Positions 57,655 to 60,056 of a DNA stretch of 64,000 bases are shown here, in pieces. The translations under genes and the position numbers were made by a program. Position 1 is the first letter of the stretch, and every line of letters starts with the position of its first letter. This DNA comes from an uncultured Bacteroidales bacterium (GTDB lineage Bacteria > Bacteroidota > Bacteroidia > Bacteroidales > Bacteroidaceae). The notes beneath the pieces are model-generated. The model was not told where the DNA came from, made no database searches, and worked only from the letters and a program-made list of their open reading frames with translations. The DNA is taken from NCBI GenBank assembly GCA_902779165.1, contig CACZAN010000011.1, positions 1-64,000 of the forward strand. The letters are read 5' to 3'.

Positions 57655-57781
57655 TTATAAACTTTCAGAACAATACGTATTCATCCATCTAATTCTACAC
57701 GTCCCTCCCGTATATCGGCCAATTTAGACACTTGAGACATCTTTTTTAGACAAAACAAGCGCATCATTCAATGAAAATACC

Positions 57782-57789
57782 TATCTTTG
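57782..57789 (+). promoter_or_regulatory. -7 box for the sensor-regulator gene
   Basis: TATCTTTG matches TAnnTTTG. An ATG at 57771 lies upstream of it, so that start cannot be used from this promoter, supporting the ATG at 57810. Confidence 0.5.
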
Positions 57790-57809
57790 CACACGAAAAC
57801 AATGAAAAA

Positions 57810-60056
57810 ATGAACAGAAAACACTTTTATAACCTCTTTTGCCTCTGCATCATTTCTACTGCTTACGCACTCCCACAACGCCACTGGACCGTCGCCGACG
57901 GACTTCCAACAGGAGAAGTGCAGCAGATTGTGCAACTGCCAAACGGACAAATGCTCATAAACTGCGAGGGAGTATTCTGCCTATCCAACGGACACGACTT
58001 CGACCCACTGCCTTGCGACTACCGACTCGCTTTCAACCTCCCTCATTACACCAATCGATATGGCCAATTTTGGGAGGCAGACTCCATCCTCTGGCTCAGA
58101 GACTTCTATCGCATATATCGATTCGATGCCAGAACCTACACATTCGCCAAAGCCGATGAAAACAACCTCAAAGGAGCACTCCTACAAAGCATCCTTGACA
58201 ACAAAGCCGACACACCAACACCAAACACAGCGGGTCGCGATTCCGTCGCGACCATCATCCCAACCACAGCGGGTCGCGATTCCGTCGCGACCATCATCGA
58301 CTCACTCCACATCCACAACACCACCACAGCTACTACAGACCGACAGGGAGGACTCTGGATTGGAACACGCTACAACGGCATCATCTATCTACCGCCATTT
58401 AGAATCAAACCCATCATACATACAAAAAACGACACCATCATAACCGCAGCACGCAACGCATCACTCCGCTCCGGCAACACCACCTTCATCATACAACTCC
58501 CAGACAACAGAAAACTCCACTGCCAGCAACTCTGTCATCTCAGCTACATCCTCCCCGGACAACACGCCCCCATAGCACTCAACGACAAAATTCCCGCATT
58601 AAAAAAATACCGGTTCATGGTCGGAGCCCTTAACCTCCAGCACCAATGGGTCGCCATCTACACACAGAACGGAGCATTCCTCCTCAACACCAAGGCCGAC
58701 ACCCTCGCACCCTTCCCACACGCCACACACATAGAACGCTACAGCACCAAGTACAACTGCATCTTAACAGACACCAGCGGCAACCTCTGGGTCGGCACAC
58801 AGAACGGACTCTTCTTCATGCAGAGCGGGTCGCGATTTCGTCGCGACCAACAACCCACCCACATCAGCCAAACATACCAGCCACCCACAAGAATACAAGG
58901 ACTCGCCAACAACTGCATCCGAAGCCTCGTACTCGATCACCGCCACCACCTCTGGGCCGGCACATCCTCCGGCATAGCACGCATCACACCATCCCTCATC
59001 AACCTCACCACCGACGACGGCATACCCACCACCACAATGATGGACCGAGCAGCAATCCTACTCCACGACCATCGACTCGTCTTCGCCTACCACCCCGCAG
59101 CAGCCATATCCTTCCATCCCGACCAACTAATCCAAGAAAATCCACCACTACCCGTCGTCATCACCAAAACACAAGCACCACCCCCAACCACAGCGGGTCG
59201 CGATTCCGTCGCGACCACCACCCCTCGACTCTCCACCCTCGACACTCACCCCTTACCCCACAATCAGAACAACATCACCTTCTACTTTTCCACACTCAAC
59301 TACGCCACACCATCACACGACACCTACCGCTACCGACTACGACCAATCGAAACCCAGTGGAACCTCTCCGCAGATCGCAGCGGACAAGCACAGGCCACCT
59401 ACAAGGCACTCCCACCAGGAGAATACACCTTCGAAGTACAGGCCGCAAACACCTCCCGACTATGGGGACCAATCACCACACAAACCTTCATCATCACACC
59501 GCCCTGGTGGCAAACAACCTGCGCAAAGACAATATACCTCCTCAGCATCCTCACCGCACTCATCGCAGCCACCAACATCTATCTGAAGAAGAACCGCCAA
59601 CGACTCATCGACGAGATCGACCAGCGCGTAAACCGACTCTTCGAACTCCGACAACAGGCAAGACACCACTTCGCAGCATCCGCAAACATCGATCCCGACA
59701 AAATCACCGTCAATGCAGACGAGGAAAAACTCGTCACCATCATGCTCAAAGCCATCCAGCTCCATATCAATGATGAGCAGTACAATGCCGAACTCCTCGC
59801 ACGAGATCTGGCCATCAGTCGAGCATCACTCTATAAGAAAATGCAAAACATACTCGGCATCACACCCACAGACTTCATACGCAACGTACGATTGAAGCAA
59901 GCAGCACAGATGCTGGCAGAATCACAGCTCTCCATTACCGAAATTGCCGACAGCGTCGGATTCGCCACTCCCCGAAACTTCTCTGCATCATTCAAGAAGA
60001 TGTTCGGAGTCCTACCATCAGAGTATCGAACCGGCAAGAGCTCATCCAAAGAATAA
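57810..60056 (+). CDS. kinase-less membrane sensor with AraC output (HTCS-like)
   Basis: A 748-residue protein. Signal peptide (MNRKHFYNLFCLCIISTAYA), a periplasmic sensor of about 550 residues with propeller-like repeats (GGLWIGTRYNGI, GNLWVGTQNGLF, HHLWAGTSSGIA) and a Y_Y_Y domain (YRYRLRPIETQWNLS), one TM near 570-590, then a C-terminal AraC helix-turn-helix (LARDLAISRASLYKKMQNIL to FATPRNFSASFKKMFGV). The histidine kinase and receiver domains of hybrid two-component systems are absent. Divergent from the leftward pectin operon, it probably regulates it. Four palindromes are inserted in frame. Coding strand is unusually G-poor and C/A-rich. Confidence 0.9.
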   Translation: MNRKHFYNLFCLCIISTAYALPQRHWTVADGLPTGEVQQIVQLPNGQMLINCEGVFCLSNGHDFDPLPCDYRLAFNLPHYTNRYGQFWEADSILWLRDFYRIYRFDARTYTFAKADENNLKGALLQSILDNKADTPTPNTAGRDSVATIIPTTAGRDSVATIIDSLHIHNTTTATTDRQGGLWIGTRYNGIIYLPPFRIKPIIHTKNDTIITAARNASLRSGNTTFIIQLPDNRKLHCQQLCHLSYILPGQHAPIALNDKIPALKKYRFMVGALNLQHQWVAIYTQNGAFLLNTKADTLAPFPHATHIERYSTKYNCILTDTSGNLWVGTQNGLFFMQSGSRFRRDQQPTHISQTYQPPTRIQGLANNCIRSLVLDHRHHLWAGTSSGIARITPSLINLTTDDGIPTTTMMDRAAILLHDHRLVFAYHPAAAISFHPDQLIQENPPLPVVITKTQAPPPTTAGRDSVATTTPRLSTLDTHPLPHNQNNITFYFSTLNYATPSHDTYRYRLRPIETQWNLSADRSGQAQATYKALPPGEYTFEVQAANTSRLWGPITTQTFIITPPWWQTTCAKTIYLLSILTALIAATNIYLKKNRQRLIDEIDQRVNRLFELRQQARHHFAASANIDPDKITVNADEEKLVTIMLKAIQLHINDEQYNAELLARDLAISRASLYKKMQNILGITPTDFIRNVRLKQAAQMLAESQLSITEIADSVGFATPRNFSASFKKMFGVLPSEYRTGKSSSKE
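58233..58253. repeat. palindrome family B, copy 1 (regulator gene)
   Basis: Arms GGTCGCGA and TCGCGACC with loop TTCCG, preceded by ACAGC. Translated AGRDSVAT. Confidence 0.85.
58272..58292. repeat. palindrome family B, copy 2 (regulator gene)
   Basis: Same 21 bp as copy 1, 39 bp downstream, same frame (AGRDSVAT). Together they make a short tandem: NTAGRDSVATI then TTAGRDSVATI. Confidence 0.85.
58828..58848. repeat. palindrome family B, copy 3, different frame
   Basis: Arms GGTCGCGA and TCGCGACC with loop TTTCG. Here it is read in another frame, giving SGSRFRRDQ instead of AGRDSVAT, still without a stop. Confidence 0.85.
59196..59216. repeat. palindrome family B, copy 4 (regulator gene)
   Basis: Identical 21 bp to copies 1 and 2, read AGRDSVAT, in a Pro/Thr-rich linker just before the Y_Y_Y domain. 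Confidence 0.85.

Follow-up and report, generated by a model that had tools for sequence, protein, structure and literature searches.

A palindromic DNA unit found four times, in two reading frames, within a single Bacteroidales regulator gene

The stretch of DNA analyzed here (the window, 64,000 nucleotides from an uncultured Bacteroidales bacterium) carries a regulator gene of 761 aa whose product, according to the open reading frame list and Pfam, contains Reg_prop, Y_Y_Y, and AraC-type HTH domains and resembles solved sensor domains in sequence (Table 1). Its neighbors encode GH88, GH43, GH97, alginate lyase, and GH28 domains. The gene hosts all four copies of a short palindrome; despite these copies, the frame runs without an internal stop and the C-terminal HTH is complete. 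The coding strand has a strong A+C bias, with third positions at A.30, C.51, G.10, and T.09.

It had been claimed from the sequence alone that a 21-bp palindrome stands four times in this gene. Indeed, we find it at all four positions, as exact matches of GGTCGCGA-N5-TCGCGACC (GGTCGCGATTYCGTCGCGACC) that make near-identical 21-bp hairpins. With up to three mismatches allowed, the window holds five matches; shuffled sequences contain 0.28 on average and none of 100 shuffles reaches five. Translation of the frame also agrees with the original prediction, giving AGRDSVAT three times and SGSRFRRDQ once, with no stop. We folded three of the four copies as RNA; these form a stem of 9 bp, closed by a U-G pair, around a loop of 3 nt (-15.4 kcal/mol), with z values from -3.4 to -4.0.

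Table 1. Positions of the features discussed. Coordinates without a locus prefix are those of the window.
Feature	Position	Strand	Remarks
Regulator gene	57771..60056	+	ORF with Pfam domains; sequence kinship to 4a2l and 3v9f
Palindrome copy 1	58233..58253	+	loop TTCCG; reads AGRDSVAT
Palindrome copy 2	58272..58292	+	loop TTCCG; reads AGRDSVAT; 39 bp after copy 1
Palindrome copy 3	58828..58848	+	loop TTTCG (one base different); other frame, reads SGSRFRRDQ
Palindrome copy 4	59196..59216	+	loop TTCCG; reads AGRDSVAT
Extended unit, copy 1	58226..58259	+	7 nt upstream, palindrome, 6 nt downstream; shared flank columns
Extended unit, copy 2	58265..58298	+	shared flank columns
Extended unit, copy 3	58821..58854	+	shared flank columns
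Extended unit, copy 4	59189..59222	+	shared flank columns
Copy-3 loop (residues 346-376)	58806..58898	+	other repeats in 9 of 36 homologues (words picked after inspection)
Copy-4 loop (residues 462-502)	59154..59276	+	other repeats in 3 of 37 homologues (words picked after inspection)
Altronate dehydratase gene	L088:5299-6897, contig C2	-	three in-frame CCCTCC..GGAGGG; peptide ACQIHSAPSRKGRAGGES occurs twice
TruA gene	L098:19147-19980, contig C13		one CCCTCC..GGAGGG palindrome inside, one near C-terminus
Y1 transposase gene, 152 aa	L064:4980-5650, contig C5		between CCAGCC..GGCTGG (GTAG foot) and AAGCCCC..GGGGCTT hairpins

The repeated unit is larger than the palindrome: it spans ~34 nt and is asymmetrical, consisting of CASAGCG, the palindrome, and ANCANC. 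The flanks of copies 2, 3, and 4 are identical in 6 of 7 columns upstream and 4 of 7 downstream; among random position triples in the gene, such identity has a chance of 5e-5 and 0.0025, respectively. Copies 1 and 2 have 34 nt in common at their spacing of 39 bp. Because two reading frames are used and the flanks are shared between copies, the unit must have been copied at the DNA level and tolerated in frame. It is the DNA palindrome that was copied and not the peptide, as had been argued from the two frames and as the shared flanks support. A peptide repeat selected for protein function could explain why RD..[IV]AT is read from three of the four copies, and from 12 of 14 sites in the genus where a related hairpin falls in a long open frame (see below). 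We find this scarcely credible, and rejected a peptide-level repeat because copy 3 has almost identical DNA but is translated in another frame; moreover, the stems pair perfectly, for which a peptide repeat would have no use.

We aligned the regulator with 37 homologues from 35 genomes of the genus (L037, L038, and L039 were left out); two genomes, G139 and G493, contribute two rows each, so some of the rows are paralogues. The palindrome occurs in none of the 37. In the loop that holds copies 1 and 2, the nine nearest homologues (L011-L014 and L065-L069) are 17 residues shorter than the window protein. In the copy-3 loop, eight of these nine are 7-13 residues shorter, and the ninth, L065, has the same length with a repeat of its own there; in the copy-4 loop, seven are 12-14 residues shorter, and L067 and L068 are three shorter. 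Relative to its homologues, then, the window protein has extra residues at three loops and the palindrome lies in frame in them. The alignment with relatives that the original prediction had called for thus came out in its favor, with both the palindrome and its residues missing from the 37 homologues. On the homologue tree the regulator gene sits on a long branch (0.53), and its A+C bias (57771-60056) exceeds that of the nine nearest homologues. Just outside one homologue (L014:1343-1436), a 39-nt sequence that contains a CCCCTTCC..GGAAGGGG hairpin is present twice in identical form.

We then asked where else the word occurs. The genome of the window is a draft of 3.59 Mb in 75 contigs, 86% complete with 14% missing; other species are represented by one genome each. 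The exact word has four places in this 86%-complete assembly, all in the regulator gene, and none in 100 other genomes of the genus. A 19-mer search that allowed two mismatches in the 14 arm bases shows no excess in the assembly (15 places compared to 17 for a reversed control). In a 464-kb sample of the genome, made up of the window and 20 further stretches, GGTCGCGA is the sole word with a local cluster and without a copy elsewhere. On these counts (four places in one gene; 15 against 17) we rejected a genome-wide family of the word, and the idea that it had spread through the genome is not borne out: in the available, 86%-complete assembly, the palindrome is private to one gene. The original prediction had itself named such an absence from the rest of the genome as a result that would speak against it. 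We also rejected a viral source, as the 21-mer has no match in viral_contigs. The same 21-mer has five exact loci in genome_contigs, including two Prevotellaceae records (L008, L009); the other three (L005-L007, from Proteobacteria, Halobellus, and Burkholderiales) look like chance matches. A looser pattern, GTCGCG-N3-14-CGCGAC, was dropped, since it was not above control in many of 61 genomes (7 compared to 6 in the window's own).

A related hairpin does occur in the genus. The 19-mer GTCGCGA-N5-TCGCGAC occurs in 13 of the 138 other genomes of the genus, at 18 places in all, compared to one for the reversed control, and in a family-wide draw it was found in 10 of 398 other genomes. At each of the 18 places in the genus, the first loop base pairs with the fifth (T-A or C-G); therefore, this hairpin has a 3-nt loop and can be written GTCGCGAY-NNN-RTCGCGAC, with one to three places per genome. 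Fourteen of the 18 lie in open frames of at least 290 codons (unproven as genes); RD..[IV]AT is read from 12 of them, as it is from three of the four copies in the window. The core of the window unit differs from GTCGCGATTCCATCGCGAC by a single base, with T.G where the genus hairpin has T-A or C-G. On this sequence likeness, the window unit probably descends from the sparse genus hairpin; the kinship is unproven because a CCGT-type stretch that precedes many genus hairpins is absent upstream of the window unit. In three species (L076, L081, L082), the genus hairpin stands at apparently the same place of one gene, followed by the peptide NIAVNSTASLD. One genome, RUG003 (G102; L045, L047), has TGTCGCGAT-NNN-ATCGCGACC hairpins at 15 places with up to two mismatches, compared to one for the control; some are paired, 74-78 bp apart.

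Could the unit be a mobile element of the REP or RPE type that an HuH (Y1/RAYT) transposase, acting in trans, inserted several times into the regulator gene? The genome does have one strong Y1_Tnp gene (L064) along with two weaker Y1 matches (L041, L042), and the related hairpin is scattered in the genus and repeated in RUG003. The strong Y1 gene lies amid hairpins in a RAYT-like arrangement (Table 1), so the search for a RAYT gene elsewhere in the genome, which had been suggested, succeeded in part: a gene of this kind is present, but the REPs on its flanks are of a different type and nothing connects it with the palindrome. The window palindrome was not found beside it, and we rejected a link between the two. 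Like the window unit, the CCAGCC..GGCTGG REPs that flank this gene are short hairpins in the same genome. They differ in sequence, have a GTAG foot that the window flanks lack, and occur at 20 places in the 464-kb sample with none in open frames of at least 250 aa (on either strand; some of these frames are not genes). With no other copy of the palindrome in its own genome, we consider transposition in trans doubtful.

The loops that hold copies 3 and 4 contain other repeats in other species. In-frame repeat words are present in 9 of the 36 homologues that cover the copy-3 loop: CCCCTC..GAGGGG hairpins in L018, L065, and L072, AGTGAAAAGTGAAAA in L016, L034, and L066, AATTCATAATTC in L024 and L070, and CATTCGTCATTC in L025. 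The copy-4 loop has them in 3 of 37 (L024, L025, L034). Both counts are biased, as the words were picked after the loops had been inspected. The CCCCTC hairpin is translated in one frame in L018 and in another in L065, and in other species AT-rich or simple repeats, not hairpins alone, occupy the same loop. Repeat words also lie outside both loops, near residue 405 in L022, near residue 230 in L025, and at the C-terminal end of L026.

We counted genome dispersal for CCCCTC, AGTGAAAA, and AATTCAT (G018), leaving out CATTCGTC (L025), CTCAACTC (L034), and the copy-4 hairpins of L024 and L025. CCCCTC-N4-14-GAGGGG occurs at 167 places in the genome of L018, at 261 in that of L065, and at 150 in that of L072, compared to 5, 6, and 3 for the control, and at 68 compared to 0 in the window's own genome. 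AGTGAAAAGTGAAAA has 74 places (L066, G459), 7 (L034, G055), and 4 (L016, G094), compared to 30, 4, and 2 for its reversed control, which is frequent because AGTGAAAAGTGAAAA is a simple repeat. A check with words derived from the genomes themselves (12-mers seen at least five times in a 263-400 kb sample of each gene's own genome) concerned 5 of 38 whole genes (WIN, L065, L066, L024, L072). At this threshold, words fall only at residues 349-358 in L065, L066, and L024, and WIN and L072 have none; at a threshold of three, L072 has words only at residue 357, and L065 and WIN have scattered words as well. A search for any hairpin of at least 8 bp in the 37 homologues gave seven matches; the two that fall in these loops are no significant excess.

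On a tree built without the loop columns (and without L026), the ten labeled rows require 10 label changes, compared to a mean of 9.8 after shuffling; labels were strict, in that L067, L068, L069, and L075, with partial or near matches by eye, counted as none. Close relatives therefore hold different repeats or none. As so many labels occur once, the number of changes could hardly fall much lower, so the tree speaks for a lack of inheritance among the sampled rows and not for a rate. The two loops look like sites that accept stray repeats, which then become part of the protein. A broader reading, which we offer tentatively and think possible, is that variable loops of this sensor family have been refitted repeatedly, species by species, with the short repeat that happens to be active in each genome, in frame and using more than one frame. 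Non-coding repeats would then be a continuing source of loop sequence, and the window would capture the emergence of an element that is private to one gene and copies itself nowhere else.

We considered two further explanations. The hairpins might be kept because they affect pausing or stability of the mRNA or help to regulate the gene, given that all three folded copies form stable hairpins and the coding strand is strongly A+C rich. The palindrome is missing from all 37 homologues, however, and in other species the same loop is occupied not only by hairpins but also by AT-rich or simple repeats; we regard such a role as improbable. An artefact of assembly or binning is suggested by the state of the genome, a draft in 75 contigs that is 86% complete and was examined as assembled sequence. 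We think this highly improbable, since the copies have four different flanks, the frame is kept at every site, the C-terminal HTH is complete, and homologues from independent genomes carry similar inserts.

Our preferred reading, to which we assign a probability of roughly 55%, is that a ~34-nt hairpin-forming unit, probably descended from the genus hairpin, entered the regulator gene and was then copied locally, at the DNA level, into two further tolerant loops and once close by, head to tail. The unit would persist because the loops tolerate a few extra in-frame residues and the word has no stop codon in the frames used; we infer that the inserts are almost neutral in their effect on the protein and that copying proceeded by hairpin-provoked template switching or a similar local repair, not by a transposase. 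Several observations argue for local copying: the word is private to the gene and absent from the 37 homologues, the copies share flanks, one orientation, and a short range, the same loops hold other repeats, and a genus hairpin lies one base away. Others count against it: three independent sites would have one orientation by chance in 1/4 of cases, 14% of the genome is missing, each species is represented by one genome, and the CCGT-type stretch of the genus hairpin is not shared.

Palindromic DNA inserted in frame in protein genes is described in PMC10969869 and PMC6649704 for the Rickettsia palindromic elements (RPEs), which are ~150 bp long and scattered in many genes (PMC10969869). Like them, the window unit is a palindrome inserted in frame in a protein gene; in contrast, it measures ~34 nt and is found in one gene, not in many unrelated ones. 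The likeness to RPEs that had been proposed therefore stands as a fair analogy, with other in-frame palindromes in enzyme genes of the same genome, and fails for genome-wide spread. GTAG/CGTC REPs are short hairpins, with 8-9 bp stems in the CGTC families, that sometimes lie inside ORFs, at times twice in one ORF, and different REPs occupy about the same recB site in two Xanthomonas species (PMC3733652). These recB and intra-ORF cases give precedents for intragenic REPs and for a shared site. The stem and short loop of the window unit fit the 8-9 bp stem of such REPs; its copies, however, lack the GTAG/CGTC tag (their flanks are CASAGCG and ANCANC), and REPs are many, dispersed, and mostly intergenic, whereas the window unit has no copies elsewhere in the genome. 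The unit is best read as a coding palindrome that works like Rickettsia RPEs or intragenic REPs; we file it as neither because it has no REP tags and no genome-wide copies.

Rickettsia and some REP-rich bacteria are the main sources of known coding palindromes, and literature searches that did not extend to supplements found no paper on them in Prevotella or Bacteroidales. Here they lie in sensor and enzyme genes of a genus with 139 species compared, so that with many relatives it becomes testable whether such inserts feed protein evolution. A single loop with several kinds of repeat across species also helps to tell a site that tolerates inserts from one that a particular element prefers.

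The in-frame palindromes in enzyme genes are of the CCCTCC/CCCCTC type. CCCTCC..GGAGGG has 22 places in the 464-kb sample, of which 11 lie in open frames of at least 250 aa; random places fall in such frames in 314 of 400 cases, so the palindrome is somewhat rarer there than expected by chance. The genes that carry palindromes of this type have clear domains. The palindromes are internal in those for altronate dehydratase (three), an epimerase (two), TruA (one), an MFS transporter, and AroE; in a gene of the mannitol dehydrogenase family and in those for DNA polymerase III delta' and MTHFR, they lie close to the N-terminus. The second one in TruA is near the C-terminus (Table 1). An alignment of AroE with PDB sequences shows no net extra residues at the palindrome, which counts against the simplest insert picture. 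The corresponding alignment of TruA has ~13 extra residues at its inner palindrome, and altronate dehydratase has extra residues too.
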